Notes under the pieces: model-generated
The model's database searches: none
Seen by the model: the letters and a program-made list of their open reading frames with translations, nothing else
Told to the model about the DNA's origin: nothing
Part shown: positions 182 through 61,148 of the stretch, piece by piece
Layout of the letters: each line of letters opens with the position of its first letter
How positions within the stretch are numbered: position 1 is the stretch's first letter
Program-made: the position numbers and the translations under genes
Source: Knoellia sinensis KCTC 19936
Lineage (GTDB): Bacteria; Actinomycetota; Actinomycetes; Actinomycetales; Dermatophilaceae
Length of the DNA stretch: 64,000 bases
NCBI RefSeq assembly: GCF_000768705.1
Contig: NZ_AVPJ01000002.1
Location: 248,001 to 312,000 of the forward strand
Direction: 5' to 3'

Positions 182-225
182 CGTATGCCGTCCGCTCACC
201 TCGCGAGGTGAGCGGACGGCATACG
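182..225. terminator. 44-bp perfect palindrome between convergent genes, made of two inverted GTATGCCGTCCG words
   Basis: Bases 182-203 and 204-225 are exact reverse complements with no unpaired loop. The outer ends are GTATGCCGTCCG and its complement CGGACGGCATAC, the word repeated through the window. It sits between the partial plus-strand gene and the minus-strand dehydrogenase, so the likely role is a bidirectional transcription terminator. There is no T tract, which is common for actinobacterial terminators. Confidence 0.75.
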
Positions 226-249
226 GACGCTTGGGCCTGAAAGGCTCGG

Positions 250-1422
250 TCAGCGGGTGGGGAGCCAGATCGTGGGTGATCCGGCGGCCATGCGCTGCTC
301 GGCGATGTGGTCGGCCGCGGCGGCAGGGCTCGTGCCGTGCTCGTCGGCGGTCCGCAGCACCTCGAGGGTGTGCTCGAAGATCGCGGTCGCGCCGACCTTG
401 GCGCGGTCGAAGTCGAAGCCGAGGAGCTCGTCGCTCACCTGGATGACGCCGCCGGCGTTGACGAGGAAGTCGGGGCAGTAGGTGATGCCGCGCGCCACGA
501 GGCGGTCGGCGGTGCCGCCCTCACCCTCGGTCACGAGCTGGTTGTTGGCCCCGCCGCAGACGATCGTCGCCTTGAGGGCGTCGACGGTGTCGTCGTCGAG
601 GGCGCCACCGAGGGCGCAGGGGGCGTAGACGTCGAGCTCGCTGCGGACGAGGGCCGCCACGTCGCTGACCGACTCGATGCCGGGGTGGGTGGCCTTGAGG
701 GCGTCGACGGCGGCTGCGTTGACGTCGGTGACGACGACCTGGGCGCCGTCCTCGACGAGGTGGCCGGCGAGGATGCGTCCGACCTTGCCGACGCCGGCGA
801 TGCCGACGCGGCGACCCTTGAGGGTGGGCTCGCCCCACAGGTGCTGGGCCGCGGCGCGCATGCCCTGGAAGACGCCGAACGCCGTGAGGACCGAGGAGTC
901 ACCGGCGCCGCCGTTCTCGGGGGAGCGGCCGGTCGCGAAGCGGGTCGTCTCGGAGACGACGTCCATGTCCTGCACGTAGGTGCCCACGTCGCACGCCGTG
1001 ACGTAGCGACCGCCGAGGCTCTCGACGAACCGGCCGAACGCACGGAGCAGTTCGGGGGACTTGTCGGAGTTCGGGTCGCCGATGATCACGGCCTTGCCGC
1101 CACCGTGCGGGATGCCTGCGACGGCGTTCTTGTAGGACATGCCCCGCGAGAGGCGCAGGACGTCGGCGAGAGCCTCGTCCTCGGTCGCATAGGGGTAGAA
1201 GCGCGTGCCGCCGAGCGCCGGGCCGAGGGCGGTGTTGTGAATCGAGATGATGGCGCGCAGCCCGGACTTCGGGTCGGAGCAGAAGACGACCTGCTCGTGA
1301 CCCGACGTGTCGGTCGGGGCGAGGGGCGCGGGGGTGGCGCTGGGGGCGCTGGACGCGGCGGGTGCCTCGGACGCGGGTGCGCTGGGCGCGGGGGCCGGGG
1401 CGGTGACGGGCGACGCGGTCAC
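250..1422 (-). CDS. Glu/Leu/Phe/Val dehydrogenase, probably valine or leucine dehydrogenase
   Basis: Predicted cytosolic NAD-dependent oxidative deaminase of branched-chain amino acids, giving the 2-oxo acid and ammonium. The 390-residue product has the family's GGTRFYPY segment at 71-78, SYKNA with Lys98, GGGKA with Lys110 (catalytic lysine of the family), TACDVGT with Asp145, and a Rossmann GIAGVGKVG at 207-215. The GTG start at 1422 has AAGGAG about 8 bases upstream. The first 40 or so residues are an Ala/Pro/Ser-rich extension not expected in leucine dehydrogenases; a later start is possible, but the ribosome-binding site favours this one. The substrate, valine or leucine, cannot be settled from sequence alone. 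Confidence 0.88.
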
Positions 1423-1554
1423 GGTGGTGACTCCTTTGTCATGACTTGAGCCGCGAGGATGACGCGGCGAATCTGGGATGCACGGGTCTCATGCACTTCT
1501 CAGGGTAGGCCGACAGGGCGCCCGGACCATATTTGCGTGCGAGAGGATGGCGGC

Positions 1555-2628
1555 ATGCGTATCGGCTACAAGGCTTCGGCCGAGCAGTTCGCCCCCGCCG
1601 AGCTGGCGTCCTACGCCGTTCTCGCGGAGGAACTGGGACTGGACTCGGTGACGATCTCGGACCACTTCCAGCCCTGGCGGCTGGAGGGCGGGCACGCGCC
1701 GAACTCCATCGCGTGGCTGTCCTGGGTGGCGGCCCGGACCGAGCGCGTCCTGCTCGGGACGTCGGTCATGACGCCGACCTACCGCTACAACCCGGCCGTG
1801 ATCGCGCAGACCTTCGCGACGATGGCGTGCCTCGCTCCGGGCCGGATCATGCTCGGGGTCGGGACCGGGGAGGCGCTCAACGAGGTGGCCGTGGGCTCGG
1901 TGCCCGAGAGCGGCTGGCCCGAGTTCAAGGAACGCTATGCGCGGCTGCGCGAGTCGGTGCGCCTCATGCGTGCACTCTGGACGCAGGAGTCGGTGACGTT
2001 CGACGGCGACTACTACCGCACCGAGGACGCCCGGATCTTCGACCGGCCCGACACTCCCGTTCCCGTCTACGTCGCCGCGGGCGGTCCGCTCGTGGCCCGG
2101 TATGCCGGCCGGTCCGGTGACGGCTTCATCTGCACCTCGGGCAAGGGGCGGGAGTTGTATGCCGACCAGTTGCTTCCCGCCGTGGCCGAAGGGCTCGAGA
2201 AGGCCGGTCGGGACAGCGGCGACATCGATCGGATGATCGAGATCAAGCTGTCCTGGGACCCCGATGCCGATCGCGCGCTCGACAACACCCGCTTCTGGGC
2301 GCCGCTGTCGCTCACCGCCGAGCAGAAGCACTCGATCCACAGCCCGGCCGAGATGGAGAGGGCCGCCGACGAGCTCCCCATCGAGCAGGTCGCCAAGCGG
2401 TGGATCGTGGCGTCCCGGCCCGAGGATGTGGTGTCGGCGGTGCGCGAGTACACCGATCTCGGGTTCGACCACCTCGTGTTCCACGGGCCCGGGGGAGACC
2501 AGGAGCGCTTCCTGCGGACCTTCACCGAGCAGGTGGTGCCGGGCCTGCGTGAACTCACCGTAGGGTCGCCGTCAACGACCCCCGCCAAGACCTCCGCCAA
2601 GACCGACGCCACGAAGGACCCTGCCTGA
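1555..2628 (+). CDS. fgd: F420-dependent glucose-6-phosphate dehydrogenase
   Basis: Luciferase-fold enzyme that oxidises glucose-6-phosphate to 6-phosphogluconolactone while reducing coenzyme F420, supplying F420H2 to other reductases. The 357-residue protein has SDHFQPW with Asp36, His37 and Trp41, and GTGEALNE with Glu106. These match the positions of the active-site His40, Trp44 and Glu109 of mycobacterial FGD1, shifted by three. ATG at 1555 follows GAGAGGA. The last ~24 residues are a Ser/Thr/Lys-rich tail beyond the usual length. Its TGA overlaps the next ATG by one base, so it leads a coupled operon running to 6659. It implies that the organism makes F420; a DDN-like consumer lies at 18687. 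Confidence 0.9.
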
Positions 2629-3916: not shown

Positions 3917-3925
3917 CCGGAAGCA

Positions 3926-4903
3926 ATGGGTGACGCGACGGTGGACGGGGGGCGGACGGCATACCGGGCGTCTGACTGGACGCAGGACGCGCTCCTCGAA
4001 CGCAAGGGTGACCACACGATCTCCGTGGTGATCCCCGCCAAGGACGAAGAGGCCACCGTCGGTGAGGTCGTCACGCGGATCCTCGCCGACTTCGTCGCGG
4101 ACGGGGGCGCGGGCCTCGTCGACGAGGTCGTCGTCATCGACTCCGACTCGACCGATGCGACCGCAGCAGTGGCACGCGATGCCGGGGCGAAGGTGTTCTC
4201 CGCCAAGGACATTCGGCCCGACCTGGGTGCGGCCTTCGGCAAGGGTGAAGCGTTGTGGAAGTCCCAGTTCGTGACGTCCGGCGACCTGGTCGCCTTCGTG
4301 GACGCCGACCTCATCGACTGGGGGACGCACTTCGTCACGGGCCTGCTCGCACCCCTCCTCGTCGATCAGGGCGTGCACCTCGTCAAGGCGGTCTATGACC
4401 GGCCGATGATCGATGCGGACGGCCGTGAGGAGGAGACCGGCGGGCGGGTCACCGAACTCGTGGCGCGCCCGTGGCTCGCGCTGCACCGGCCCGGGCTCGC
4501 GGGTGTGGTCCAGCCCCTCTCCGGCGAGTGGGCGATCCGCCGGGAGAGCTTCGCCTCGTATGCCGTGCCCGTCGGCTACGGCGTGGAGATCGCGGCGCTG
4601 CTCGACACCGCGGACCGGTTCGGCGTCGAGGCCGTCGCTCAGGTCGACTTGGGCCGACGCACCCACCGGCACCACCGGCATGACACGCTCGGTCTCATGG
4701 CTGTGCAGGTGCTTGCTGCTGCGGAACGCCGTCGCGATGGGGCGGAGTCCGGCGCTCGGGCTGGGATGCCCGAGCTGGACATGGTGCCGTTGCGGCAGTT
4801 CGTCCGTGGCGCTGAGGGATTCGAGCCGCGCGAGACCGCTGTGGCCGTGAGCGAACGGCCTCCGGCCGCATCAGTCCGTATGCCGTCCGTGGAGTCCCGA
4901 TGA
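3926..4903 (+). CDS. gpgS: Glucosyl-3-phosphoglycerate synthase
   Basis: GT81-type glycosyltransferase that moves glucose from an NDP-glucose donor to 3-phosphoglycerate, the first step to glucosylglycerate and, in mycobacteria, methylglucose lipopolysaccharides. The 325-residue protein has VVIPAKDEE (34-42), the IDSDSTDAT sugar-nucleotide loop (71-79), GKGEALWKS (105-113), the metal-binding VDADL (125-129) and QPLSGEWAIRRE. Its TGA overlaps the folP2 ATG, the same gene pair found in mycobacteria. Two copies of the GTATGCCGTCCG word lie inside the reading frame, near the N-terminus (encoding RTAY) and near the C-terminus. Confidence 0.9.
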   Translation: MGDATVDGGRTAYRASDWTQDALLERKGDHTISVVIPAKDEEATVGEVVTRILADFVADGGAGLVDEVVVIDSDSTDATAAVARDAGAKVFSAKDIRPDLGAAFGKGEALWKSQFVTSGDLVAFVDADLIDWGTHFVTGLLAPLLVDQGVHLVKAVYDRPMIDADGREEETGGRVTELVARPWLALHRPGLAGVVQPLSGEWAIRRESFASYAVPVGYGVEIAALLDTADRFGVEAVAQVDLGRRTHRHHRHDTLGLMAVQVLAAAERRRDGAESGARAGMPELDMVPLRQFVRGAEGFEPRETAVAVSERPPAASVRMPSVESR

Positions 4904-5772: not shown

Positions 5773-6659
5773 GCGGCGCGGTCGCACCCGTCTCGGACGT
5801 CGTCGTCGTGCCGGGGGCGCCGTTGCTGCTCCCGGAGTACCAGGGGCGTGCCGCCGCGGCACCCGGGCTGCTCGAGTCCTGCGTGGAGGCCGTGCGGGCC
5901 GCGGTCGAGCACGCGTCCCATGTGGTCGTCGTGCACGCGACCGATCGGGAGCCGCGCAGCACGCGGCCGGCGATCGGGCTCCGCGTCGCGGACCACTTGT
6001 TGGCTGCGACGCACTTGGGGTTCACGGTCGACCACGTGTCCGTGGCGTGGGACGCGTCGGTCGAGGAGTGCCTCGAGCTGGGCCGCGTGACAGTCGGGGC
6101 GGTTCGTGAGCCGACCCCAGCAGGGTCCCGCTCCGAAAGTGTCTTTGCTCCGCCTGGCGATGCAAAGACACCCCCATTCGCTGCAGGCGATGACGCAAGT
6201 TCGGTTGCTGCCCAACGAGACGCAAAGGGGAGTGTCTTTGCGTCCGCTGGGGGAGCAAAGACACCTCTTGGGGGGACCCCGCATCGGGGGCGTCCGGCGA
6301 GCACAAGTGAGCGTGCGGGCACGACACTTCTGGTCGTCGCCGACGGGTCGGCTCGCCGCACGGAGAAGGCACCCGGCCACCTCGACCCTCGCGCCGCAGG
6401 CGTGGACGACGCCATCGTCGACGCCCTTCGCTCCGCTCACATGGGTGGCCTGGACCGGCTGCTCGACCTGGACCCCGCGCTCTGCGCCGACCTTCTCGTC
6501 TCCGGACGTGCGCCCCTCCAAGTCCTGGCTTCCGCGGTGGGCGCCGGGCCCAGGACGGACGCGGAAGGCGCGCGGACGGCATACCGGCTGGAGCGGTTGG
6601 ATGTGAGCGATCCGTTCGGGGTGCTCTACGTCGTCGCGCACCTCATGGCAGCCGTCTGA
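5769..6659 (+). CDS. Class III extradiol dioxygenase-like protein carrying an in-frame palindromic insertion
   Basis: A 296-residue actinobacterial protein resembling the LigB/DODA-fold 'class III extradiol dioxygenase family', of unknown substrate. The N-terminal half (VVVVPGAPLLLPEYQG...) and C-terminal half (LLVVADGSARRTEKAPGHLDPRA... to the end) look normal for the family. Residues ~117-172 do not: they hold two copies of a SVFA-x(4)-GxAKTP repeat encoded by the palindromic DNA at 6123-6279. Family members are nearer 230-240 residues from memory, which fits an insertion of about 50. The gene starts with an ATGA overlap to folP2 and ends the operon. Confidence 0.7.
   Translation: MSGAVAPVSDVVVVPGAPLLLPEYQGRAAAAPGLLESCVEAVRAAVEHASHVVVVHATDREPRSTRPAIGLRVADHLLAATHLGFTVDHVSVAWDASVEECLELGRVTVGAVREPTPAGSRSESVFAPPGDAKTPPFAAGDDASSVAAQRDAKGSVFASAGGAKTPLGGTPHRGRPASTSERAGTTLLVVADGSARRTEKAPGHLDPRAAGVDDAIVDALRSAHMGGLDRLLDLDPALCADLLVSGRAPLQVLASAVGAGPRTDAEGARTAYRLERLDVSDPFGVLYVVAHLMAAV
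6123..6279. repeat. Palindromic element inserted in frame within a coding region
   Basis: Two hairpins, GTGTCTTTGC/GCAAAGACAC at 6139-6148/6162-6171 and again at 6232-6241/6255-6264, lie in an outer imperfect inverted repeat. The left arm begins GGGTCCC near 6123 and the right arm ends GGACCC near 6279. The whole ~155-bp unit is open in the gene's frame and encodes a repeated peptide. It looks like a mobile or spreading palindrome tolerated inside a gene, comparable in kind to rickettsial palindromic elements. Confidence 0.75.
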
Positions 6660-7820: not shown

Positions 7821-9768
7821 TCGTCGCCACCTCTCGAAGGGGGAGCACAGCCTCGACGATGGTGCCCTCACCGGGCGCCGACCTGACGTCCAGGGTGCCG
7901 CCCTGCTCGTCGGCGCGCTCCCGCATCGAGCTCGTCCCCACGCCGGCCCTGGCATCCTCGGGAAGCCCCCGACCATTGTCGCTGACCGTCAGCACCAGCC
8001 CTGCCTCGGTGCATTGCGTCGTGACGTGACACGTCTGGGTGCCGCTGTGCCGCAACGCATTCGTGATCGCCTCCGAGATGATCGCGTATGCCGTGGCTCC
8101 CGTCTGGGGCTCGACTCCCTCATCGTGGCGCAGGTCCAGAACCACCTCGTTGCCATCCTCGCCGTGTCGAGCGGCCAGTTCCAAGAGAGCCGCAGACAGC
8201 CCCAGCTCGTCGAGTGCCGGAGGGAGAAGGTGGTGCGAGAGCGTTCGGACGTCCTGGACTCGCTGGTCGAGTTCGGCCTGGAGCGTTGCGAGCAGCTCAG
8301 TCGCGGCCTCCGGATCCGACGCCATGAGGTTGCGCGCCCCCTGCAGGCCGAGCCGCAGGCCGGCAAGGGAGGGCCCGAGTCCGTCGTGGATCTCCCGGCG
8401 GATGACCCGACGCTCCTCGAGTCGAGCGCGGGCCAGTCGGGTCCTGGCCTCGTCGACGTCGGAGGCGGCCCGCGACACGGCGGCTGCCGTGGCGAGGACT
8501 GTCGCGAGGTCCGACAGGGTCTGCTCGCCGCGGGCCCCGAGGGTCTCCCCACCCGGAAGGGTGACTTCGAGAACGCCAACGTGCTCGCCGCGGTGGGCCA
8601 ACGGCATACGGACGGGTTCTCCACTGGGAACGCCCCACTGGACCGGATCGCGGTCAGGCAGCGCGACGGTCACGGACTCGAGACGCATCGTCGTCCCGAT
8701 ATCGGCCGCGAGCCCCTGGAGCAGGTCATCGGTGCTCTCGGCGAGGCGGAGCTGGCTGCCGAGTCGCCGGACCACGTGATCGGGAGACGCCGAGACGCCG
8801 TAGACGAGGCGGTGGACCCGACCTTCCAGCCAGAGACGGGCCGGCTGCACGGCGACCGCGACGGCGGCGGCTGCGACAAGTCCGGTCGCTCCGTCACCCG
8901 GGAGGACGCTGCGTGCGAGCACGGTGACGACGAGGTAGACCCCCACCAGGGACACGGTGAGGAGACCGGCGAGCACGGTGCGGCTCACGGCGAGCCGCAG
9001 GCCCCACATGCGACTCCGGAGAACGGCGACGAGGATTGCTGCCGGATAGACCGCCTGCGAGAGGAGGTGCAGGGCGGGTGTCGTCCATGCCGGGAGTGGG
9101 AGAGCGTCGGGCGGGAGGAGCAGGGGGACGAACGACAGCGCGAGCAGGGCGGCACCGAGGGCGAGCCAGCCGAGCCCGTTGCGTTCGTCGACCGGGCCAC
9201 GACGGCGACGGTGCTCCACGGCTCCGGCCGTGATGAGCCCGAACACGACCGCGGCCGCGAGCAACACCAGGAACGGCAACATCTGGTCGGTCAGTTGGGC
9301 GACGAGGACTGCCAGCGTCAGGACGGCGCCGACGAGCACACCCCAGCGGGCACGCCCCAACGGGTGGTTGCGCACGAGCCACGGCACGACAAGGAAGAGG
9401 GCGAGGGTGCCCGGCACCCAAGCCGTGCTCTGGAGGATGCGGACGGCCTCGGTGGCCGGCAGACCGGGGCGGGTGGCGGCGAAAGCGGGGTAGCCGAAGC
9501 CCGTTGCGGCGATGCCGCCGCCGATCGCCGCGAGGGCGAGCAACCACCCGACCGGGTGCGGGCGGCGCGCGATGATGAGTGCTGCCACGGTCCCGTAGAC
9601 GCACGCCACCGCCACGTCGACGACGAAGAACCAGAGGCTCTCGTCCCAGGGCGGCCGCGCCATCACGATGAACGTGACCGCGAGCACGGCGAGGCCCCAG
9701 GAGGCCACGGCGATCGCCATGGCCACCCGGGGTAGACCGGGCCCACTCGTTGCGCTCGGTGCGGTCAT
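7813..9768 (-). CDS. Membrane sensor histidine kinase (HisKA_3 type)
   Basis: Sensor kinase of the NarX/DesK group and partner of the regulator at 7176. The 651-residue protein has about ten hydrophobic segments in the first ~330 residues, a GAF-like linker, the dimerisation/phosphorylation segment RRVIRREIHDGLGPSLAGL (His in EIHDG), an N-box SEAITNALRHS and a G-box DNGRGLP. The start is uncertain: ATG at 9768 gives MTAPSATSG and is used here, while GTG at 9810 would add 14 residues and leave only 5 bases to the upstream gene. Neither has a clear ribosome-binding site. The signal is unknown. Confidence 0.88.
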   Translation of the reverse strand: MTAPSATSGPGLPRVAMAIAVASWGLAVLAVTFIVMARPPWDESLWFFVVDVAVACVYGTVAALIIARRPHPVGWLLALAAIGGGIAATGFGYPAFAATRPGLPATEAVRILQSTAWVPGTLALFLVVPWLVRNHPLGRARWGVLVGAVLTLAVLVAQLTDQMLPFLVLLAAAVVFGLITAGAVEHRRRRGPVDERNGLGWLALGAALLALSFVPLLLPPDALPLPAWTTPALHLLSQAVYPAAILVAVLRSRMWGLRLAVSRTVLAGLLTVSLVGVYLVVTVLARSVLPGDGATGLVAAAAVAVAVQPARLWLEGRVHRLVYGVSASPDHVVRRLGSQLRLAESTDDLLQGLAADIGTTMRLESVTVALPDRDPVQWGVPSGEPVRMPLAHRGEHVGVLEVTLPGGETLGARGEQTLSDLATVLATAAAVSRAASDVDEARTRLARARLEERRVIRREIHDGLGPSLAGLRLGLQGARNLMASDPEAATELLATLQAELDQRVQDVRTLSHHLLPPALDELGLSAALLELAARHGEDGNEVVLDLRHDEGVEPQTGATAYAIISEAITNALRHSGTQTCHVTTQCTEAGLVLTVSDNGRGLPEDARAGVGTSSMRERADEQGGTLDVRSAPGEGTIVEAVLPLREVATNA

Positions 9769-10725: not shown

Positions 10726-12471
10726 TCAGTCCCTCATGTCGGTGATGGTCGTGAGGATGTAGCCGTTCGAGCGCAACGTCGAGACGATCTGGGGGAGCGC
10801 GTCGAGCGTGTGGAACCCGCCGAGGTGCGCGAGCACGATCGTGCCGTTCGGGGGCAGCGGGCTGGTGGTCCGGCTGACGATCTGGGCGGTGGTCGTCGAC
10901 GTCGACCAGTCGATCGTGTCGCGGTTCCACATCAGCGTCTTCGTGTAGCCCACCGCGGCCGCGTTGTCTCGCACGAACGTGTTGTGGGATCCGTAGGGCG
11001 GGCGCCAGTAGGGACGTGGGTCCATCCCGCCGGACGCGGACCGAAGGATCGCCTCGGTCTGGGTGAGCTCGTTGCGGATGAAGGCACCCGTCATCGACAC
11101 CTGGCACGGTGCCGCGCTCGGGGATCCACCTCCTCCGAGGACGAGGTCGCAATGGCGCATCGTGTGGTTTCCGAGTTCGAACAGCTCGGGTCGTTGTCCG
11201 ATGTCGGCGAGGATCGCGCGTCCTTCGGTGGTCTGCGTCATGGCCCCCGTCGGGAAGAACGTCGTGCAGATCTGGTTCGCTGCGAGGTAGGCGACGATGT
11301 CGCGCGCCCCTTCGAGTCGTCCGCCCATGTCAAGGGTGAAGGAGACCTGCTTCGTGGCGGTCGGGACGGAGCTGATCACCTGCTGCCCGCCGGCGGCCGG
11401 CTTGCGGCCGCTCCAACACACACCCATGAGGCGTTGGGCTTCCTGGGCCGCGGAGACGCCGACGACGCTGGGACCACCGAGGAGGTATGCCGTCGTGGGG
11501 CTGACCCGGCCGAGCTCGGTGCTCGTGGCGGCCGTGAGCGAGCCTCCGCCGAGGAGGATCGGTCCGCGAGTCCGGCCTGCGGGGGAGACGGCGGCGAGCG
11601 CGTCGGGGAAGTTGAAGCCGGTGGCGATGAAGGCCGTGGGCCGGTTCGCGCCGAAGATGCGCTTCGACATGGCGATGGCCGTGTCGAAGCGGCTGGCCCC
11701 GGAGATTCGCTCGACGGGTGCGATGGCCCCGAGGGCAGCGGCGACATCGGCCGACACGGCGCCCGTGCCGCCCATGAGCATGATGCGGCTGGGGTTGAGG
11801 CGGTTCAGTTCGTCGGCAACGGTCGGGGGGAGGGACGTGGGTCGCGTCAGGAGCATCGGCGCCCCCTCCACGCCGGCGGCGGCTCCGCCGCTCAGGGCGT
11901 CCGGGAAGGTCGTGCCGGTGGCGACGTAGGCGACGTCCGCACCTGCGGGGAAGGCGTTCTGCGACACCTTGACTGCGGTGTCGTAGCGGTCCGTGCCGAA
12001 GGCGCGGGTGGCTCCACCGGAGCTCAGGGTTGCCAGGGAGGCGAGGACGGCGGCGGACACGACATCGGGCCCGCCGGTGACGACGATGGTGCCGGGGTTG
12101 AGGCGGTCAAGTTCGGTGCGGGTGCTGGCCGGGACGGAGTCCCTGTTGACGAAGAGCACCGGTCCGCCGCGCTTGGCGGCTGCCGGTCCAGCGGCGAGCG
12201 CATCGGGGAAGTTCGTCCCGATCGCGACATAGGCGACCGGCACCCCAGGGCCAAAGAACTGCTGGGAGGTGCGGGCCGCCGTCGCGAACCGGTCCCCGCC
12301 GGCGAGCCGGACGACCTTGAAGGAGAGGTCACCGTTGGGGTTGGCCGCACGGGCTTGGCCCGTCGAGGCCATGAGGGCCCCCGACGCGCCAAGCGCGGCC
12401 ACTGCGGAAATCGTGAGCGCCTTGCGCCGGATCTCGCCGGTGCGTGGCTTCCATGTCATCGGATCGCTCAT
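10726..12471 (-). CDS. Secreted cell wall-binding repeat protein with polysaccharide deacetylase domain
   Basis: A 581-residue exported protein. A signal peptide runs to ARA near residue 42. Three cell-wall-binding type 2 repeats follow, each opening with a GxxRxxTA motif (RLAGGDRFATAA, RAFGTDRYDTAV, RISGASRFDTAI) and holding FPDAL. The C-terminal ~190 residues form a NodB-like deacetylase with NHTMRH, RPPYG and LAHLGG motifs. The first NodB motif reads TLDMGG rather than TFDDG, so the first Asp (catalytic base) is kept but the second, a metal ligand in the family, is Met. The gene probably trims or binds cell-wall glycan. ATG at 12471 has GGAGG seven bases upstream. Confidence 0.85.
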   Translation of the reverse strand: MSDPMTWKPRTGEIRRKALTISAVAALGASGALMASTGQARAANPNGDLSFKVVRLAGGDRFATAARTSQQFFGPGVPVAYVAIGTNFPDALAAGPAAAKRGGPVLFVNRDSVPASTRTELDRLNPGTIVVTGGPDVVSAAVLASLATLSSGGATRAFGTDRYDTAVKVSQNAFPAGADVAYVATGTTFPDALSGGAAAGVEGAPMLLTRPTSLPPTVADELNRLNPSRIMLMGGTGAVSADVAAALGAIAPVERISGASRFDTAIAMSKRIFGANRPTAFIATGFNFPDALAAVSPAGRTRGPILLGGGSLTAATSTELGRVSPTTAYLLGGPSVVGVSAAQEAQRLMGVCWSGRKPAAGGQQVISSVPTATKQVSFTLDMGGRLEGARDIVAYLAANQICTTFFPTGAMTQTTEGRAILADIGQRPELFELGNHTMRHCDLVLGGGGSPSAAPCQVSMTGAFIRNELTQTEAILRSASGGMDPRPYWRPPYGSHNTFVRDNAAAVGYTKTLMWNRDTIDWSTSTTTAQIVSRTTSPLPPNGTIVLAHLGGFHTLDALPQIVSTLRSNGYILTTITDMRD

Positions 12472-18027: not shown

Positions 18028-18039
18028 CGGACGGCATAC
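18028..18039 (-). repeat. GTATGCCGTCCG word, intergenic copy
   Basis: An exact 12-base copy of the repeated word (as CGGACGGCATAC on the plus strand), 37 bases upstream of the reductase start at 18076 and not part of a hairpin. Confidence 0.7.
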
Positions 18040-25731: not shown

Positions 25732-25768
25732 CGGGACGGCATACACACTGGATTCGTATGCCGTCCCG
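25732..25768 (+). terminator. Hairpin of two inverted GTATGCCGT words after the cupin gene
   Basis: CGGGACGGCATAC at 25732-25744 pairs perfectly with GTATGCCGTCCCG at 25756-25768 around an 11-base loop, 20 bases after the cupin stop. Likely terminator of the oxidoreductase-cupin operon. Confidence 0.7.
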
Positions 25769-44199: not shown

Positions 44200-45033
44200 A
44201 TGACAGCAGGGGTGGGGGAGGGCGTCGCCGTCGCGGGGACCGCGACGGCAGGACGTGACGGTCGCTGGTGGCACGAGCGGTTCATCGTGGCGTTCGGCGG
44301 GGCGGTCGTGGTCCTTGCCACGCTGATCATGGCGGGTTCGTGGACAGACGGGCTGCGGGGCTCGTCGTTCGATGAACTGAGGCAGGACCTGCGCAACGGC
44401 GCAGTGCAGGAGTGGTACGTCGCGGACCAGCTCGAACGCGGGACCTTCGACCGGATGGTGGCGCACCAGACGGGCATCGTCGAGGCTCCGGGCGAGCCGA
44501 CGCCGGACGCTGCCGGGGGTGTCGACATGACCGTCGACACGCAACAGGGCGGGATCATCGTCTGGCGGGCGTACGGGGCGCAGGGCTGGCGAGTGGCGAC
44601 GTCCGACGTTGACCTGGACTCGTTCGGCAGCAGCATCAGCAGGTCCGGCGGTTCGCCGGAGGTCGCCGAGTTCGTGAAGGAGTTGCGCGAGGCCGACGTC
44701 CCCATGCGCCCGTTCAGCGTGGGCGACGGCGGGCCGCTCACCTTCCCCGCGATGCTCGCCGCCGCGGGGATCTTTGCCGGGCTCATCTTCGGCGCGGCTC
44801 CACGCCTGGGGACGCGGTGGTTCTGGTTCTGGGTCATGGTCAACGGGCCGCTCATGCTCGGCTTCATCGCGTATGCCGTGGTCGAGCTCATCGGGTTCGG
44901 TCGCCCCACGGATCGGCCCCTCGACAAGCGACTGTCGGGCATCGTGGGCTTCGTCGGTGCCATCGCCCTGAGCGTGGCCTTCGGCATCGGCGCCAACGCC
45001 CTCCGGTCCTGGGGAGTGCCGCTCCCGCTCTGA
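44200..45033 (+). CDS. Membrane protein of unknown function
   Basis: A 277-residue protein: one N-terminal membrane segment (FIVAFGGAVVVLATLIMAGSW), a ~130-residue soluble region (DELRQDLRNGAVQEWYVAD, MTVDTQQGGIIVWRAYG), then about three more segments (AMLAAAGIFAGLIFGA, WFWFWVMVNGPLMLGFIAYAVVELI, GIVGFVGAIALSVAFGIGANAL). No family recognised. ATG at 44200 is chosen because the longer frame starts inside the terminator. It carries one repeated word (AYAV). Confidence 0.75.
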   Translation: MTAGVGEGVAVAGTATAGRDGRWWHERFIVAFGGAVVVLATLIMAGSWTDGLRGSSFDELRQDLRNGAVQEWYVADQLERGTFDRMVAHQTGIVEAPGEPTPDAAGGVDMTVDTQQGGIIVWRAYGAQGWRVATSDVDLDSFGSSISRSGGSPEVAEFVKELREADVPMRPFSVGDGGPLTFPAMLAAAGIFAGLIFGAAPRLGTRWFWFWVMVNGPLMLGFIAYAVVELIGFGRPTDRPLDKRLSGIVGFVGAIALSVAFGIGANALRSWGVPLPL

Positions 45034-46688: not shown

Positions 46689-47111
46689 TCAGATCCGTTC
46701 GAGCGTCGCTGGGTCCTCGGCGCCGTCGAAGTACTTCTCCAACACGTCTGTGAAGAGCTGTCGGTCCAGTTCGACCTCGGCAGCCCGCCCGAACAGCGTC
46801 AGGCACGAGCGCAGCTTGATCGCGTCGATTCCACCGAACACCGATTCGGCGTCCGCCCCGGGCAGTTCCAGAAGCACCTCGCAACACTCACGCAACCGTT
46901 GTCCGAGAACGGGATCCGCGAGATAGGCGCGGGCTTCGCCAAGGTTGGACACGGCATACCTCTGCGCCATGGCACTGCGACCGAGCCCCACGATCTGTGG
47001 GAAGACGAACCACATCCAGTGGCTCACCTTGCGGCCGCGACGGAGTTCGGCGAGCGCGGCGTCATACGCTCCGCCGGCGTCCTGCGCCTCGACGAACCGG
47101 TCCAGTCCCAT
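46689..47111 (-). CDS. DUF1810 family protein
   Basis: A 140-residue protein with the DUF1810 pattern: LDRFVEAQDAG, ALAELRRGRKVSHWMWFVFPQIVGLGRS, AQRYAVSNLGEARAYLADPVLGQRLREC, and DAIKLRSCLTLF. Function unknown; it is related to the macro-domain-like/ADP-ribose-linked proteins only by loose suggestion. ATG at 47111 has GGAGG only 1-2 bases away, so initiation is uncertain. Divergent from the gene at 47160. Confidence 0.85.
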   Translation of the reverse strand: MGLDRFVEAQDAGGAYDAALAELRRGRKVSHWMWFVFPQIVGLGRSAMAQRYAVSNLGEARAYLADPVLGQRLRECCEVLLELPGADAESVFGGIDAIKLRSCLTLFGRAAEVELDRQLFTDVLEKYFDGAEDPATLERI

Positions 47112-47833: not shown

Positions 47834-47845
47834 CGGACGGCATAC
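47834..47845 (-). repeat. GTATGCCGTCCG word, intergenic copy
   Basis: An exact 12-base copy (as CGGACGGCATAC) in the leader region, not in a hairpin. Confidence 0.7.
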
Positions 47846-48771: not shown

Positions 48772-49776
48772 GTGGACAGCTGGATCCCGGTGGCCCTTGT
48801 CGTCGCGCTGGCGATGGGCTTCAACTACACCAACGGCTTTCATGACGCGGCCAACGCCATCGCGACGTCGGTGTCGACGCGTGCTCTGACGCCGCGCATC
48901 GCACTCGGCATGGCCGCAGTCGCCAACCTCGTCGGGGCCTTCTTCGGCACCAAGGTCGCCAAGACCGTCGGCAGCGGCATCATCGATGCCCCTGCGGGCA
49001 AGGTCGGCCTGATGATCTGTGCGGCCGGCCTCGTCGGCGCCATCGCCTGGAACATGCTGACGTGGTGGTACGGCCTGCCGTCCTCGTCGTCGCACGCCCT
49101 CATCGGTGGACTCGGCGGCGCGGCCATCGCGGCGTCGAGCACGGTCCACTGGGACGCGGTGCTCCAGAAGGTCATCCTGCCGATGATCGCGTCACCCGTC
49201 GTCGGGCTCGTCGTCGGCTTCCTCGTGATGACCGCGATCCTCTGGATCTTCCGCAAGGGGCACCCGGGCAAGGTCAACCGCGGCTTCCGCTACGCGCAGA
49301 CCGTGTCCGCGGCCGCGATGGCCTTTGGCCACGGCATGCAGGACGCTGCCAAGACCGCAGGCGTGGTCGTGCTGGCATTGACCGTGGGTGGCTTCCACTC
49401 GAACGGTGACGACAGCATCCCGCTCTGGGTCCTCGTCATGAGCGCCGTGGTCATCTCGGCCGGAACGTATGCCGGTGGGTGGCGGATCATGCGCACGCTC
49501 GGCCGCCGCATCATCCACCTCGACCCCCCGCAGGGATTCGCCGCGGAGACGACCGCCGCAGCGGTCCTCTACGCCGCCACGGCGACCGGCGCGCCCATCT
49601 CGACGACGCACGCCATCACGTCGGCGATCATGGGCGTCGGCTCGACGAAGTCCGTCAAGGCGGTCCGCTGGGGCGTCGCCAAGAACATCGTCGGAGCGTG
49701 GGTGCTCACCTTCCCCGGCGCTGGCATCGTGGCGGTGGGCATGTTCCTGCTGCTCAAGCTCATCATCGGCGTCTGA
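48772..49776 (+). CDS. pit: Inorganic phosphate transporter (Pit family)
   Basis: A 334-residue, roughly ten-helix low-affinity phosphate (metal-phosphate) symporter. The PiT signature GFNYTNGFHDAANAIAT is at the N-terminus and repeated as FGHGMQDAAKTAGV in the second half, the expected internal duplication. SSSHALIGGLGGA and STTHAITSAIMGVGS are the paired family loops. GTG at 48772, five bases after DUF47. Converges with pstSCAB, placing low- and high-affinity phosphate uptake side by side. Confidence 0.9.
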   Translation: MDSWIPVALVVALAMGFNYTNGFHDAANAIATSVSTRALTPRIALGMAAVANLVGAFFGTKVAKTVGSGIIDAPAGKVGLMICAAGLVGAIAWNMLTWWYGLPSSSSHALIGGLGGAAIAASSTVHWDAVLQKVILPMIASPVVGLVVGFLVMTAILWIFRKGHPGKVNRGFRYAQTVSAAAMAFGHGMQDAAKTAGVVVLALTVGGFHSNGDDSIPLWVLVMSAVVISAGTYAGGWRIMRTLGRRIIHLDPPQGFAAETTAAAVLYAATATGAPISTTHAITSAIMGVGSTKSVKAVRWGVAKNIVGAWVLTFPGAGIVAVGMFLLLKLIIGV

Positions 49777-50841: not shown

Positions 50842-50850
50842 GTATGCCGT
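50842..50850 (+). repeat. GTATGCCGT word between pstA and pstB
   Basis: Exact 9-base copy in the intercistronic gap. Confidence 0.6.
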
Positions 50851-54284: not shown

Positions 54285-55277
54285 CTACGGGAGGTGGCGC
54301 TCGACGGCGACGATGCGCGCGCCGCCGTTCTTGCCGTGGCGTTCCTTGCCCAGGCCAGTCCCCGCTACGTGGCAGACGAGGGCCTCACCCTTGGCGAGGT
54401 TCTCGTCGCGGGCCTCGACGAACCGTTCCAGCAGTTCCACGGAGTCCGGCCCGCCCAACTCCAGCAGGGGACTCAACACGTCCATCACCGCCGGCAGCAC
54501 CGGCCCATGCGTGCACAGCGCCATCGGCTCGCCCCGCTCCAGCGCCCGCGCCACGTGCTCGGCAGCCTTCTCCGGCGCCGCCTCGTGCCCCTCCTCCGAG
54601 AGGCCCTTCCTGGTACGGGGAGCGATCCCGGACCACACGGCATACGGGGAAATCGTGTCGAGACAACGCAGCGAAGGTGACGTGACGATGTCGGTGATTC
54701 CGTATGCCGTGAGCACCGGAATGAGGGCATCCGCCCGTTCTCGCCCGCGCTCGTCCAAAGGCCGCAACTGGTCGTCGTCGCTCCAGTCGGAGCGGGCGAG
54801 GGCCTTCGCGTGCCGGACGATGACGAGCGGCCAGGTGTCGAGAGTGCCCTCGGTGTGGGCGCGGACAAGGGCCCTCAGCTGGTCGCGGTCGTGCGAGTAG
54901 TCGAGGCGGACGTCGGCTTCGGCGACATCGAGCCAGTCGACGGCGTCGATCTCGTTCTCGAGGCGGCCGTGACCACCGGTGACGGTCGAGGCCCAGTAGC
55001 GGACGACCTTCTCGCCCTGCTCGCCGCTCTTGGTGAGCATGAGGTAGTGGGCCCCCGGCAGTGGGCGCCCGAGGCGCACCTGGAGGCCGGTCTCCTCCTC
55101 GGTCTCGCGGGCCGCTGCGGCCGACCAGTCCTCGCCCGGGTCGAGCTTGCCCTTGGGCCACGACCAGTCGTCGTAGCGAGGCCGGTGCACCAGGGCCACC
55201 TGGAGCACGCCCTTGCGCACCCGCCACGGCAGCGTTCCAGCCGCGGGGATGGCTTGGGCGCGGGCCTGCGCGCTCAG
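54285..55277 (-). CDS. mutT1: NUDIX hydrolase fused to histidine phosphatase, MutT1 type
   Basis: A 330-residue two-domain protein. The NUDIX box is [22 protein letters not shown] (GX5EX7REUXEE match). A SixA-like phosphatase follows: [14 protein letters not shown] (RHG-type), [22 protein letters not shown] and CTHGPVLP. The same pair and the ppk neighbour occur in mycobacterial MutT1, which cleanses 8-oxo-dGTP/diadenosine polyphosphates. No ATG or GTG gives the expected start; CTG at 55277 forms a CTGA overlap with the ppk1 stop and gives a normal length, so a CTG start is proposed. GTG at 55379 is an alternative overlapping ppk1. Confidence 0.83.
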
Positions 55278-57684: not shown

Positions 57685-58392
57685 TCAGCGCAGCCGTCCG
57701 CCCGCACGAATCACCGTTTGGGCTGCCAGGGCATCGAGTGAATCCACGACGTCGGGGTCCTCGACCTTGAGGTCGGTCTGCAGGATCGACAGTTCGGTGC
57801 AGCCGAGCACGATGGCCTGGGCGCCCCTGGCGCGCAAGTGCGCGACCGCAGCGTCGAAGCGCTCGCGCTCGACCGGCATACCGGCTTTGACTCCGTCATA
57901 GATCATCGACATGACGTCCTTCTGGACGACGTCGTCGGGCTCGACCGGAGTGAGCCCGCGCTCGATCGCCGTGTCGTGATAGATCCGGGAACGCAGCGTG
58001 CCGTCGGTCGCGAGGATGCCGATGGTGGTGAGGTCGGGGACAGCGGTCTGGGCGGCGGTCACCGTCTCGGCGACGATGTCGAGGACGTCGATCTCGACTG
58101 CGGCCTGCACCTCGTCGAGGAAGGCGCGGGCCGTGTTGCACGGGACCGCGATGAACGTGGCGCCGGCGGCTTCGAGTTGGCGCGCGTCCTCCGCCATCAC
58201 CGGTCCGGGGGACTCGTCACTGTCTCCGACGATGTATGCCGTCCGGTCCGGAATGCTTGCGTGGTTCCACACGAGCATGTCGACGTGGTCCTGGTCGCGA
58301 TCGGCGTCGGTCATGGCGAGGATGCGCTGCATGAAGTAGACGGTGGCCATCGGGCCGACCCCGCCGAGGATGCCGACCGGTTCGTTGCGCAC
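57685..58392 (-). CDS. Aspartate/glutamate racemase family protein
   Basis: A 235-residue cofactor-independent racemase. The two catalytic cysteines are visible in VPCNTARAF and LGCTELSIL, and VGILGGVGPMATVYFMQRI is the family N-terminus. It interconverts L- and D-Asp or D-Glu. GTG at 58392. It diverges from a FemA/B-type transferase and an ATP-grasp ligase, suggesting that the D-amino acid feeds peptidoglycan cross-bridges. One repeated word is in frame (encoding DRTAY). Confidence 0.86.
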   Translation of the reverse strand: MRNEPVGILGGVGPMATVYFMQRILAMTDADRDQDHVDMLVWNHASIPDRTAYIVGDSDESPGPVMAEDARQLEAAGATFIAVPCNTARAFLDEVQAAVEIDVLDIVAETVTAAQTAVPDLTTIGILATDGTLRSRIYHDTAIERGLTPVEPDDVVQKDVMSMIYDGVKAGMPVERERFDAAVAHLRARGAQAIVLGCTELSILQTDLKVEDPDVVDSLDALAAQTVIRAGGRLR

Positions 58393-58541: not shown

Positions 58542-59768
58542 GTGGCACTGGCCGCCCTCGACCTCACCGACCGCGAGCACGACGACTTCGTCCGTGACCA
58601 CCCCAAAGGTCACCTCATGCAGACGACACCGTGGGGCAAGGAGAAGGAGCACACCGGCTGGACCTGGCGCACCGTCGCCGTGGGCCGCCCGAGCAGGACG
58701 GCGGGGGAGCGCCCCGAGGTCACGGGTGTCGCCCTCATCCTGTTCCGTCGCACGCCCGTGCTGCCGATGGCGCTCGCCTACTGCCCGCGCGGCTTCGTCG
58801 TCGACTGGGCGGATGGCGAGAGCGTCGACGCCCTCCTCGCCGAGGTGAGCCGCGTCGCCAAGGGAAACCGAGGCGTCCTGCTGCGCATCGACCCGGCCGT
58901 TCGCATCGACAACCCCGACATCCGCCCCGCCCTCGAGTCTCGCGGCTTCACCCGCACCGACCCGGGTGACGATGCCGCCAAGACGCTCGCCCAGCCGGCG
59001 CTGCGCATGGTCACCGACATCAGCGACCTCGACCAGCTCCACAAGGACCTGTCACAGGGCACGCGGCAGTCGATTCGCAAGGGCGAGAAGTCGGGCCTGA
59101 TCTACGAGTCTGCGGGGCGCGACGGCGTCGACGCCTTCTACGAGCTCATGAAGACGACCGGCGAGCGCGACGGCTTCGGCATCCGCAGCAAGGACTACTT
59201 CACGACCCTCGTCGACGTCCTCTCGCCGACCGACGACATCGTCATCTCCCTCGTCAAACTCGACCATGGTGCTGCGGCCGACAAGGCCCGAGCGGCGCTC
59301 GAGGACACCCGCGCCCAGCTCCAGAAGGCGCAGGGCAAGCGCGAGAAGTACCCCTCCGAGAAGGCCGACCGTCAGGTCGCCACGCTCGAGGAGCAGATCG
59401 CGGCCAAGGACAAGTCGATCGAGGAGTTCGAGGCGGCGCACGCAAAGCACCCCGACGGCCAGTACCTCGCCGGCTCGGTCTTCGCCACCTGCGGCACCCG
59501 CGGCTCCTACCTCTATGCCGCGTCCTCCAACGACTACCGCAACCTGCGCCCGAACTACCTCATGGTCTGGCGGATCATGCAGGACGCCGCGGCCAAGGGC
59601 GTCAAGACCTTCGACTTCGGAGGCATCGACGCGTCCGAGGGGCTCGAGGAGTTCAAGCGTCAGTGGAACCCAGAACGACGTGAGTATGCCGGTGAGTTCA
59701 CCAAGCGCCTCCGTCCCGTTTCAGGTCGGCTCATCGACCTGGTCGTCAAGATCTACAAGCGCCGCTGA
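58542..59768 (+). CDS. FemA/FemB-type peptidoglycan bridge aminoacyltransferase
   Basis: A 408-residue Fem-family transferase: adds an amino acid from aminoacyl-tRNA to the peptidoglycan stem peptide precursor. GNAT-like halves are recognisable (HLMQTTPWGKEKEH, then GIDASEGLEEFKRQWNPERREYAGEF at the end). A 244-302 coiled-coil arm (DKARAALEDTRAQLQKAQ...) matches the FemA helical insertion. GTG at 58542 with AGGAG four bases upstream. It is followed by the ATP-grasp ligase after 14 bases: an operon. Confidence 0.86.
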   Translation: MALAALDLTDREHDDFVRDHPKGHLMQTTPWGKEKEHTGWTWRTVAVGRPSRTAGERPEVTGVALILFRRTPVLPMALAYCPRGFVVDWADGESVDALLAEVSRVAKGNRGVLLRIDPAVRIDNPDIRPALESRGFTRTDPGDDAAKTLAQPALRMVTDISDLDQLHKDLSQGTRQSIRKGEKSGLIYESAGRDGVDAFYELMKTTGERDGFGIRSKDYFTTLVDVLSPTDDIVISLVKLDHGAAADKARAALEDTRAQLQKAQGKREKYPSEKADRQVATLEEQIAAKDKSIEEFEAAHAKHPDGQYLAGSVFATCGTRGSYLYAASSNDYRNLRPNYLMVWRIMQDAAAKGVKTFDFGGIDASEGLEEFKRQWNPERREYAGEFTKRLRPVSGRLIDLVVKIYKRR

Positions 59769-59782
59769 AGGGCTGAAAACCG

Positions 59783-61096
59783 TTGTCTGACAAGTCCTTT
59801 GCGTCCATCGCGGACCAGCCCTTCGTCCCCGTCATCGTCGGCGCCCACGTCGGCGGCTACTCGCTCGTCCGCGCCTTCCACGAGGCCTACGGCGTGAAGT
59901 CCCTCGTCGTCACCGGCGCGACGTCGTGGGTCGTCGAGAACTCCGCGATCCTCGAGGTCGTCCACTGCTCCGACGCGCACGACCCGGCGGTGCTCGCGGC
60001 CACGCTCAAGGGCTCGCCGTTCGCCAACCTCGCGCAGCCCAAGATCCTGCTCGCCACCTCCGACTCGCTCGTCGACGTCATCGCCCTGATGCGCGACGAC
60101 CTCGACGACTCGTGGAAGGTCCCCTATGTCGGGGCCGAGCCGCTCGCGCGCGCCACCCGCAAGCACACCTTCGAAGAGGCGGCGCAGGCAGCGGGAGTGA
60201 CGACTCCGGCGACGACGTTCATCGACCTGGGAGACACGGCATACAACGTTCTTGAAGCCGAACTCCCCACCGACGGCTACCCACTCATCGTCAAGCCGAC
60301 CGCACCGGCCGCGTGGAACCGCGTGAAGTTCGAGGGCCAGGCCAAGGTCCACGAGGTCGCGACGCAGGAGGAGCTGCGTGATCTCGTCGGCCGCGTGCAG
60401 GCCTCCGGCTACCGCGAGACGCTCATCGTGCAGGACAAGATCCCCGGCGACGACACGGGCATGCGCATCCTGACGTGCTACTGCGACAAGGACTCTCGCG
60501 TGCGGTTTGCGAGCTATGGACGCACGCTCATCGAGGAGCACTCGCCCGGACTGCTCGGTGTGCCCGCCGCGATCCTCACCGGCCAGAATCGCGAGATCGT
60601 CGACGAAGCCGTGCGGCTTCTCGCCGAGCTCAAGTGGGTCGGCTACGCGAACTTCGACCTCAAGTACGACCCACGCGACGGCAAGACGAAGTTCTTCGAG
60701 CTCAACCCGCGGCTCGGGCGCTCGAACTACTACGTCACGGGGACGGGGTTCAACCCAGTGCGGTGGTACGTCGACGAGTACGTCCACGACAACCTGCCTG
60801 ACGAGTTCGAGCTCGTCGAGGCCGACACCGAGTCGGTCTACTCGGTCGTGCCGGTGCGGACGATCAAGTGGGCGATCGCACGCCACCCCGACCTGTGGGA
60901 GCGGACGCAGCGGGTCATCAAGGCCGGTGGGCTGCGCAACCCGTTGCACTACAAGGCCGAGAAGCACCCCGTTCGGTGGGCCAAGATCCTCGCGGCGGGC
61001 GTGAGCTACGACCGCAAGTTCCACCAGTACTACGACCCGGAGGCGGCCTTCCACCCCGGTGGCGAACCCGCCGACTCCGACCTGCCGCGTACCTAG
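59783..61096 (+). CDS. ATP-grasp carboxylate-amine ligase, D-aspartate-ligase-like
   Basis: A 437-residue ATP-grasp enzyme: PLIVKPTAPAAWNRVKF (ATP-binding), FASYGRTLIEEHSPG, KWVGYANFDLKYDPRDGKTKFFELNPRLGRSNYY (acid/Asn metal site). Similar ligases (D-aspartate ligases) attach an amino acid through its side chain to the peptidoglycan stem lysine. TTG at 59783 is the only start near the conserved N-terminus. Follows FemX, and a racemase is divergent; together they suggest an interpeptide-bridge pathway using a D-acidic residue. Which residue is not determinable here. Confidence 0.82.
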   Translation: MSDKSFASIADQPFVPVIVGAHVGGYSLVRAFHEAYGVKSLVVTGATSWVVENSAILEVVHCSDAHDPAVLAATLKGSPFANLAQPKILLATSDSLVDVIALMRDDLDDSWKVPYVGAEPLARATRKHTFEEAAQAAGVTTPATTFIDLGDTAYNVLEAELPTDGYPLIVKPTAPAAWNRVKFEGQAKVHEVATQEELRDLVGRVQASGYRETLIVQDKIPGDDTGMRILTCYCDKDSRVRFASYGRTLIEEHSPGLLGVPAAILTGQNREIVDEAVRLLAELKWVGYANFDLKYDPRDGKTKFFELNPRLGRSNYYVTGTGFNPVRWYVDEYVHDNLPDEFELVEADTESVYSVVPVRTIKWAIARHPDLWERTQRVIKAGGLRNPLHYKAEKHPVRWAKILAAGVSYDRKFHQYYDPEAAFHPGGEPADSDLPRT

Positions 61097-61136
61097 CTCA
61101 CCCAATTGGACGGTTCGGCACAACCCAGCCCATCGC

Positions 61137-61148
61137 GTATGCCGTCCG
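61137..61148 (+). repeat. GTATGCCGTCCG word, intergenic copy
   Basis: Exact 12-base copy in the 156-base gap between the ligase and the toxin-antitoxin genes. The rest of the gap, including paired TCTGAAT/CCTGAAT words near 61203-61231, shows no gene. Confidence 0.7.

Follow-up and report, generated by a model that had tools for sequence, protein, structure and literature searches.

An abundant, conserved octamer of Knoellia sinensis, probably a DNA-uptake sequence with dialects in related genera

Introduction

The stretch of DNA analysed here (the window: 64,000 nucleotides, positions 248,001 to 312,000 of contig NZ_AVPJ01000002.1) comes from the actinobacterium Knoellia sinensis KCTC 19936 and carries 32 copies of a 9-mer, GTATGCCGT, built on a core octamer, GTATGCCG. 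An earlier note, made from the sequence of the window, had likened the 9-mer to the uptake-signal repeats by which some bacteria label their own DNA. Our analysis supports that reading through the genome-wide abundance of the word, its dialects, a codon-preserving test and the presence of competence genes. The octamer, best followed by T, is in our judgement probably the DNA-uptake sequence of Knoellia, of independent origin, with dialects at the level of the genus and a Tad-type pilus as its putative reader. Of the genomic hallmarks of uptake sequences for which we tested, all were found except even spacing and a firm match between dialects and tree.

The word and its abundance

The 32 copies lie exactly where the earlier note had placed them, 17 on the plus and 15 on the minus strand, and its count of twelve copies in the extended form GTATGCCGTCCG was reproduced. 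Chance would supply about 0.3 copies, as it had estimated: the expectation is 0.37 for independent bases, and 100 dinucleotide shuffles of the window averaged 0.26 copies and never exceeded 2. By excess over base composition, GTATGCCGT ranks first among all 9-mers of the window. Its abundance extends beyond the window, with 1,429 copies (717 + 712 by strand) in the whole genome (3.99 Mb in 61 contigs) as against 17 (10 + 7) of the reversed word, an over-representation of a short word across the genome of the type seen for the DNA uptake sequences (DUS) and uptake signal sequences (USS) of other bacteria.

The limits of the word were determined in a set of 464 kb, consisting of 400 kb of contig C1 and the window, to which the counts below refer unless stated otherwise. 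When position 9 is varied, GTATGCCGT (159 copies, 1.6 expected) is accompanied by GTATGCCGG (61, 2.4 expected) and GTATGCCGC (53, 2.5 expected), and GTATGCCGA occurs 4 times (2.3 expected). No other single-base variant exceeds its expectation more than about threefold, and the numbers are small, the largest being GGATGCCGT (22 versus 8.9). Because only changes at position 9 leave the variants abundant, the conserved unit is the octamer GTATGCCG, after which T is favoured, G and C are tolerated and A is rare. The octamer occurs 277 times, a density of about 0.6 per kb, and 43 times in the window. Unpaired intergenic copies (n = 46) show a longer preference, comprising an A at −8 and GTATGCCGTCCGCTC[GA]CCT, which in unpaired coding copies (n = 182) is reduced to the A at −8 and the T at position 9, with traces at +12 and +18.

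Genes, gaps, strands and pairs

Genes were called with a simple codon-model caller of our own making and not taken from a curated annotation. Wholly between genes, the 9-mer occurs 52 times, as compared with 0.2 copies expected from intergenic composition, and within coding sequence 102 times, as compared with 9.0 ± 3.4 (maximum 16) in 30 synonymous shuffles; for the coding octamer the figures are 196 and 20.3 ± 3.8. Codon-context bias was an alternative raised by the earlier note; a bias of codon pairs or of amino-acid context, for example Tyr-Ala-Val in membrane proteins, agrees with the preference of coding copies for the TAT GCC frame. Since synonymous shuffles fall so far short of the observed count, the word is not a product of codon usage; together with the intergenic copies and the frequent antisense ones (86 gene-borne octamers, as against 116 in sense), the shuffling refutes a codon-context origin, to which we assign next to no probability. 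The genome-wide frequency is thus not matched by a codon-context model, nor is the word absent outside the window, the two outcomes that the earlier note had named as telling against a role in uptake or binding.

Copies are found in genes and in gaps and on both strands, as the earlier note had claimed. Genes hold 202 of the 277 octamers, and the 9-mer is enriched 4.4-fold between genes relative to coding sequence, with octamer densities of 1.73 per kb in convergent, 1.84 in codirectional and 1.03 in divergent gaps. Over the first 400 kb of contig C1 the 9-mer is present 62 and 65 times on the two strands. A Chi-like recombination hot-spot, read by a helicase-nuclease of the RecBCD or AdnAB type, would likewise be a non-palindromic octamer present in hundreds to thousands of genus-specific copies, and the density of Chi in Escherichia coli, also an octamer, is similar. 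Chi sites favour the leading strand, however, whereas the Knoellia octamer shows no strand bias along the chromosome, with 117 copies on each strand over 400 kb and 23/16 in the most uneven 50-kb bin, the replication origin not having been located. Neither inverted pairs nor the intergenic enrichment would be expected of a hot-spot, and we regard this explanation as improbable. Strand-skewed motifs of the Chi type or of the FtsK-orienting polar sequence (KOPS) type find no support in the balanced strands.

Some copies form inverted pairs, in agreement with the earlier note. Three pairs of 9-mers in the window lie less than 80 nt apart (183/216, 25736/25756 and 54637/54702) and all are inverted; in the 464-kb set, neighbouring 9-mers within 80 nt number 8 (4.5 expected), all 8 inverted, and neighbouring octamers 25 (13 expected), 19 of them inverted. 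The pair 183/216, the only one that was folded, forms a perfect 20-bp stem with a 4-nt loop at 182-225 (−51.4 kcal/mol, z −8.1). These pairs and this strong hairpin would suit a mixture of minor causes, namely a site of methylation or restriction, or a hairpin that terminates transcription. Only 8 close 9-mer pairs (≤80 nt) occur among 159 copies, however, and most octamers lie within genes; moreover, restriction sites are usually avoided, unlike the octamer, which is enriched and kept. Such a mixture is therefore highly improbable.

The distribution of the octamer also varies with gene composition. Genes below 65% GC contain 3 octamers in 37 kb, and those of at least 67% GC contain 177 in 313 kb. 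The octamer itself is 62.5% GC, so that composition alone would favour low-GC genes, the opposite of what was observed. The four longest octamer-free gaps (12.7, 11.8, 9.9 and 7.8 kb) have a GC content of 61-65%; in the first three the listed genes appear, by eye, to be largely for polysaccharide synthesis, although the first gap begins with some housekeeping genes. Taking low GC as a proxy for foreign DNA, we infer that the low-GC genes poor in the octamer were recently acquired.

Conservation among Knoellia relatives

The window was aligned to five Knoellia genomes (8.5 to 34.9 kb each, at 80-83% identity). The 43 octamer sites and five genomes provided 105 gap-free comparisons, the other 110 being unusable; the comparisons come from related genomes and are not independent of one another. 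Flanking octamers, offset by multiples of three bases, served as controls. The octamer was kept in 90 of 105 comparisons, the flanking octamers in 241 of 959; in coding sequence the figures were 66 of 81 and 182 of 786, and between genes 24 of 24 and 59 of 173. Column identity was 0.91-0.98 across the octamer, 0.75 in the adjacent outside columns and 0.64 to 0.93 in the farther flanks. Among the 218 octamers with at least 40 comparisons, GTATGCCG ranked first in conservation. The TAT codon was kept in 33 of 39 cases inside the word and in 53 of 138 outside it, and position 9 varied among T, G and C across the relatives. Selection or drive preserves the octamer; like a DUS or USS, it is maintained among relatives and scarce in foreign DNA, as judged by the proxy of low gene GC.

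Distribution and dialects

Five named Knoellia genomes contain 994, 885, 1,469, 1,437 and 1,408 copies of GTATGCCGT. Across the family, here the GTDB group Dermatophilaceae with 53 genera and 149 genomes (under NCBI, Knoellia belongs to the Intrasporangiaceae), the 9-mer is patchy and is replaced in several genera by one-base variants, which is what the check in sister genera proposed by the earlier note revealed. At least one genome with at least 100 copies was found in 29 of the 53 genera, the other 24 remaining below; the excess over the reversed word is weak in genera g33 (2.0-fold) and g4 (2.5-fold), and amounts to 2.1- and 4.0-fold in the two genomes of g50. A survey of the order comprised 297 genomes, 24 of them from the family. 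None of the 273 genomes from the 19 other families exceeded 44 copies, and in the genome with 44 the reversed word occurs 45 times; GTATGCCGT is thus abundant in one of the 20 families sampled. Elsewhere, 12 copies were counted in a Glycomyces, 1 in a Curtobacterium and 11 in a Nocardioides metagenome-assembled genome.

Candidate words of other genera were sought, with no word fixed in advance, in 40-100 kb samples from 29 family genomes outside Knoellia, each of a different genus; they were then assessed by their intergenic counts and, in coding sequence, by comparison with 20 synonymous shuffles (Table 1). Words were chosen and tested on the same samples, which inflates small figures; genome-wide counts are free of that choice. 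Seven tests of these words in g2, g10, g41 and g45 served as controls: coding counts ranged from 0 to 2.1 times the shuffle mean, and no more than 2 copies lay between genes. A doubling in coding sequence is therefore of little significance by itself. A clear word was not seen in the samples of g2, g3, g10, g11, g15, g19, g28, g41, g45 and g49.

Table 1. Words enriched in samples of related genera, with intergenic copies (observed/expected) and coding copies (observed/mean of shuffles)
Genus	Word	Intergenic	Coding	Remark
g16	GTATGCCGCT	15/0.02	14/0.1	
g26	GGATGCCG	13/1.0	67/12.6	
g17	GGATGCCG	3/0.27	30/4.6	
g23	GTACGCCG	6/0.36	27/5.5	
g40	GTACGCCG	13/0.89	43/9.1	
g48	GTACGCCG	1/0.16	27/4.5	
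g24	GTACGCCG	0/0.36	15/6.4	weak
g25	GTACGGCG	5/0.21	37/11.8	genome G069
g20	GTATGCGG	2/0.09	14/1.8	
g27	GTATGACG	6/0.06	17/1.4	
g35	GTATGGCG	4/0.14	9/1.3	
g9	CGATGCGG	3/1.1	52/13.3	mainly coding
g37	CGAAGGGG	10/0.46	33/5.8	
g38	CGAAGGGG	11/1.15	29/9.1	
g4	GTATGCCG	2/0.19	26/3.0	
g5	GTATGCCG	3/0.03	32/3.0	
g16	GTATGCCG	16/0.35	16/2.0	
g27	GTATGCCG	3/0.16	21/2.8	
g32	GTATGCCG	4/0.12	18/2.1	
g35	GTATGCCG	7/0.14	7/0.9	
g39	GTATGCCG	2/0.03	15/1.3	
g53	GTATGCCG	6/0.19	9/0.6	

Genome-wide, GTACGCCG is frequent in g40 (3,903, 2,111 and 4,185 copies), g48 (2,618, 2,366 and 785), g23 (2,216) and g24 (1,359). Intermediate counts were obtained in two genomes of g32 (865 and 1,011), one of g53 (870) and g19 (752), and the K. 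sinensis genome has 236. For GGATGCCG the counts are 3,816 and 3,838 in g17, 3,949 in g26 and 2,195, 2,099, 4,480 and 3,619 in g44. Outside these genera the counts peak at 1,336 and 1,210 (two genomes of g2) and 1,239 (one genome of g53); K. sinensis has 589. The reversed dialect words occur 148 to 439 times in genomes of g40, g17, g26 and g44. Many other genomes exceed the reversed word two- to five-fold, so that only the top counts are telling. In g3 and g19, GTACGCCG is raised genome-wide despite samples without a clear word.

Within two genera the counts are uneven. In g25, genomes G025, G069 and G096 carry 276, 6 and 893 copies of GTATGCCGT, and GTACGCCG occurs 1,463 times in one genome and 374 and 177 times in the other two; in g3 (genomes G002, G084, G054 and G107), GTACGCCG occurs 345, 347, 1,125 and 2,529 times. 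This unevenness suggests recent gain, loss or switch of dialect. Two further observations concern other repeats. The genomes G144 (L034-L038) and G037 (L102-L103), from two related genera, are enriched in CGAAGGGGG, a word unrelated to the octamer and present in genes and gaps; it is a dialect of a very different kind or else a separate phenomenon. Genome G015 (L044-L048) has, beside its GTATGCCGCTG dialect, a clustered and less GC-rich repeat (ATCGAAAGAG, CGAAAGAGCA) in five 2-kb bins of its sample.

A site for a cytoplasmic chromosome-organising protein, or for another sequence-specific DNA-binding protein with no role in uptake, would share many of these properties: the octamer is conserved, present genome-wide in genes and gaps, strand-neutral and rare in low-GC genes, and the specificity of a regulator could drift between genera and so create dialects. 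Against such a site stands the density of a fixed octamer at about 0.6 per kb, far above that of known site-specific organisers (tens of sites each for MatP, Noc, SlmA and ParB), and the inverted pairs, the longer flank preference and the dialects are typical of uptake sequences. We consider a binding site of this kind unlikely, if the least so of the alternatives.

Competence and pilus machinery

As in DUS- and USS-bearing bacteria, competence machinery is encoded. The K. sinensis genome contains ComEC, with an adjoining ComEA (SLBB and helix-hairpin-helix domains), DprA and a Tad/Flp cluster, so that the competence genes for which the earlier note had proposed to look are present. Of the 149 family genomes, 145 have a ComEC match, the exceptions being four fragmented or incomplete assemblies, and 146 have a TadE match; the K. 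sinensis ComEC is 71-73% identical, over the best segment, to those of the five named Knoellia genomes. The Tad/Flp cluster lies at about 419.2-423.8 kb of contig C1 (also L156:19235 to L157:3810) and encodes TadA, two T2SSF proteins (TadB and TadC), TadE, a 70-residue peptide that is Flp-like by eye and without a family match, a TadF-like protein, likewise assigned by eye, and a TadG-like protein. TadE and the TadF-like and TadG-like proteins are candidate receptors. A second, larger Tad cluster is found on contig C60 at 121.4-129.8 kb (L158), where TadE was matched and the remainder was assigned by eye, including TadZ-like and CpaB-like proteins and two small Flp-like pilins. A classical type IV pilus was rejected as the machine: PilM was found in 5 of 149 family genomes and in 0 of 9 Knoellia genomes, and no N_methyl (type IV) pilin was found in the K. 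sinensis genome.

Proposed mechanism and its weighing

We infer from this distribution and gene content that the word biases uptake and is read by a protein of the Tad pilus. In the mechanism that we propose, GTATGCCG would serve on either strand, at about 0.6 copies per kb, as a self-label. A minor pilin of the TadE, TadF or TadG type in a Tad/Flp competence pilus would bind octamer-bearing double-stranded DNA, and the pilus would hand the tagged DNA to ComEA; ComEC would pass one strand, which DprA and RecA would recombine. Because tagged DNA would be taken up more often, tagged alleles would spread in the population, and this spread would build up and conserve the word wherever genes tolerate it, with recently acquired DNA still lacking it. 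A change of receptor in other genera could then give rise to the dialects GTACGCCG, GGATGCCG and GTATGCCGCTG and to the weaker ones.

Several observations weigh against an uptake sequence read in this way. The word CGAAGGGG is enriched in g37 and g38 yet unrelated to the octamer. ComEC and TadE are also present in genera without a clear word (g2, g10, g11, g41, g45 and others), and the wordless genome G134 of g2 carries, by eye, the same kind of Tad cluster; with ComEC and TadE near-universal, none of the machinery genes tried separates carriers from non-carriers. Close pairs are only slightly more numerous than expected (9-mer pairs, 3 versus 1.3 in the window and 5 versus 3.2 in the 400 kb). 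Even spacing was not seen, octamer gaps fitting an exponential distribution (Kolmogorov-Smirnov p 0.45). Finally, a ComEC tree was built from 34 labelled rows and three outgroups, with the words lumped into five states and without g15, g20 and g41 (the row for g41 was missed, though a ComEC match exists there). On this tree the dialect state changes 14 times, which 1 of 200 shuffles matched when all rows were used and 30 of 200 when one row was kept per genus; because of the latter result, the agreement between dialects and tree is weak.

We think it rather likely, with somewhat less assurance than for the uptake role itself, that Knoellia and its relatives represent a third, independent case of self-recognising DNA uptake, without precedent among Gram-positive bacteria or in being read by a Tad/Flp pilus, in which one-base dialects across the family act as barriers to genetic exchange between genera. 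According to PMC12616744, the uptake-sequence trait is known from no families other than the Neisseriaceae and Pasteurellaceae. Both of these are Gram-negative, and no actinobacterial uptake sequence was found in the open-licence literature among the matches listed. Self-labelled DNA uptake would then have evolved repeatedly, and with another pilus; the family would offer a natural set of dialects and of word-bearing and wordless genera for matching receptor and word, and tagged DNA would provide a practical route for transforming soil actinobacteria.

Copies in the window

All 43 octamers of the window are listed in Table 2. The surrounding genes are actinobacterial in character, for example those for an F420-dependent glucose-6-phosphate dehydrogenase and a glucosyl-3-phosphoglycerate synthase.

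Table 2. Copies of the word in the window; "kept" gives the number of gap-free aligned Knoellia relatives that retain the octamer, and "outside" marks sites outside the relatives' alignments
Word	Position	Strand	Location	Kept	Remark
GTATGCCGT	183..191	+	intergenic	3/3	left arm of perfect inverted pair
GTATGCCGT	216..224	-	intergenic	3/3	right arm of pair with 183
GTATGCCG	2100..2107	+	coding	5/5	then G
GTATGCCG	2157..2164	+	coding	2/5	then A, rare form
GTATGCCGT	3956..3964	-	coding	5/5	
GTATGCCGT	4558..4566	+	coding	1/5	
GTATGCCGT	4878..4886	+	coding	4/5	
GTATGCCGT	6576..6584	-	coding	3/3	
GTATGCCGT	8086..8094	+	coding	1/1	
GTATGCCGT	8601..8609	-	coding	0/1	
GTATGCCGT	11485..11493	+	coding	outside	
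GTATGCCGT	18031..18039	-	intergenic	3/3	
GTATGCCGT	18439..18447	+	coding	2/3	
GTATGCCGT	19798..19806	+	coding	outside	
GTATGCCGT	21558..21566	-	coding	outside	
GTATGCCGT	22859..22867	+	coding	outside	
GTATGCCGT	25736..25744	-	intergenic	outside	inverted pair with 25756
GTATGCCGT	25756..25764	+	intergenic	outside	inverted pair with 25736
GTATGCCG	26904..26911	-	coding	outside	then C
GTATGCCGT	26975..26983	-	intergenic	outside	
GTATGCCGT	28871..28879	-	intergenic	4/4	
GTATGCCG	29879..29886	-	coding	0/2	then G
GTATGCCGT	30334..30342	+	intergenic	4/4	extended form
GTATGCCG	32476..32483	-	coding	4/4	then C
GTATGCCG	32540..32547	+	coding	4/4	then G
GTATGCCGT	35402..35410	-	coding	3/4	
GTATGCCG	37345..37352	+	coding	4/4	then G; relatives T
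GTATGCCGT	38179..38187	-	coding	4/4	
GTATGCCGT	39845..39853	+	coding	4/4	
GTATGCCGT	43475..43483	+	coding	3/4	
GTATGCCG	43989..43996	-	coding	4/4	then G
GTATGCCGT	44871..44879	+	coding	3/3	
GTATGCCGT	46951..46959	-	intergenic	3/3	location by our gene calls
GTATGCCGT	47837..47845	-	intergenic	2/2	extended form
GTATGCCG	49467..49474	+	coding	2/3	then G
GTATGCCGT	50842..50850	+	intergenic	2/2	
GTATGCCGT	54637..54645	-	coding	2/2	inverted pair with 54702
GTATGCCGT	54702..54710	+	coding	2/2	inverted pair with 54637
GTATGCCG	57874..57881	-	coding	2/2	then G
GTATGCCGT	58234..58242	+	coding	2/2	
GTATGCCG	59684..59691	+	coding	outside	then G
GTATGCCGT	60236..60244	-	coding	outside	
GTATGCCGT	61137..61145	+	intergenic	outside	extended form

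Another word, CGACTTTGTGCCC (complement GGGCACAAAGTCG), is also repeated, with 24 copies in the 464 kb; most of these form the ends of inverted repeats, with 49-64 nt between the starts of the two ends. It is found in the window at 14492-14566, 32813-32887, 41005-41078 and 43656-43720, and 16 further ends lie in contig C1:1-400000. The element has the appearance of a conserved bidirectional terminator or of some other feature between genes.

Comparison with known systems

The USS of the Pasteurellaceae consists of a core on the 9-bp scale with a longer, weaker flanking consensus, an arrangement that the Knoellia word shares. The two differ in that their sequences are unrelated, the phyla are distinct, and Knoellia has Tad-type pili in place of type IV pili.

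The DUS of the Neisseriaceae, as described in the available part of PMC3630211, resembles the Knoellia word in being short and non-palindromic, in occurring in at least 1,000 copies in genes and gaps, in forming intergenic inverted pairs and in having dialects between lineages. It is read by the minor pilin ComP, whereas no PilM match was found in Knoellia and no N_methyl pilin in the K. sinensis genome; ComP itself was not searched for. Knoellia is also a high-GC actinobacterium with another word, one without the CTG core that the same excerpt describes as conserved in all neisserial DUS dialects (PMC3630211). The dialect GTATGCCGCTG of g16 ends in CTG, which we take as chance. The earlier note had pointed to an 8-base match with the Neisseria DUS; the overlap is real, and since the CTG core lies outside GTATGCCGT and related dialects vary inside the overlap, it is best taken as coincidence and not as kinship. 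Without the CTG core and a type IV pilus, descent from the neisserial DUS is rejected, and a likeness in kind is supported.

The closest parallel in machinery is the actinobacterium Micrococcus luteus, in which, according to the part of PMC6370729 available, Flp pili are needed for transformation and the genome encodes comEA, comEC, two tad-like clusters and a Flp pilin, without a comG cluster. In the main text of a further paper on this species (PMC4322843), as far as available, "uptake sequence" and "uptake signal" have 0 occurrences. Transformation has been shown in M. luteus, whereas competence in Knoellia is predicted from its genes. The parts list is the same in both, TadA and small TadE and TadF pilins included, and by eye the N-terminal segments of the Knoellia TadE and TadF resemble those of M. 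luteus, as given in the same portion of PMC6370729.

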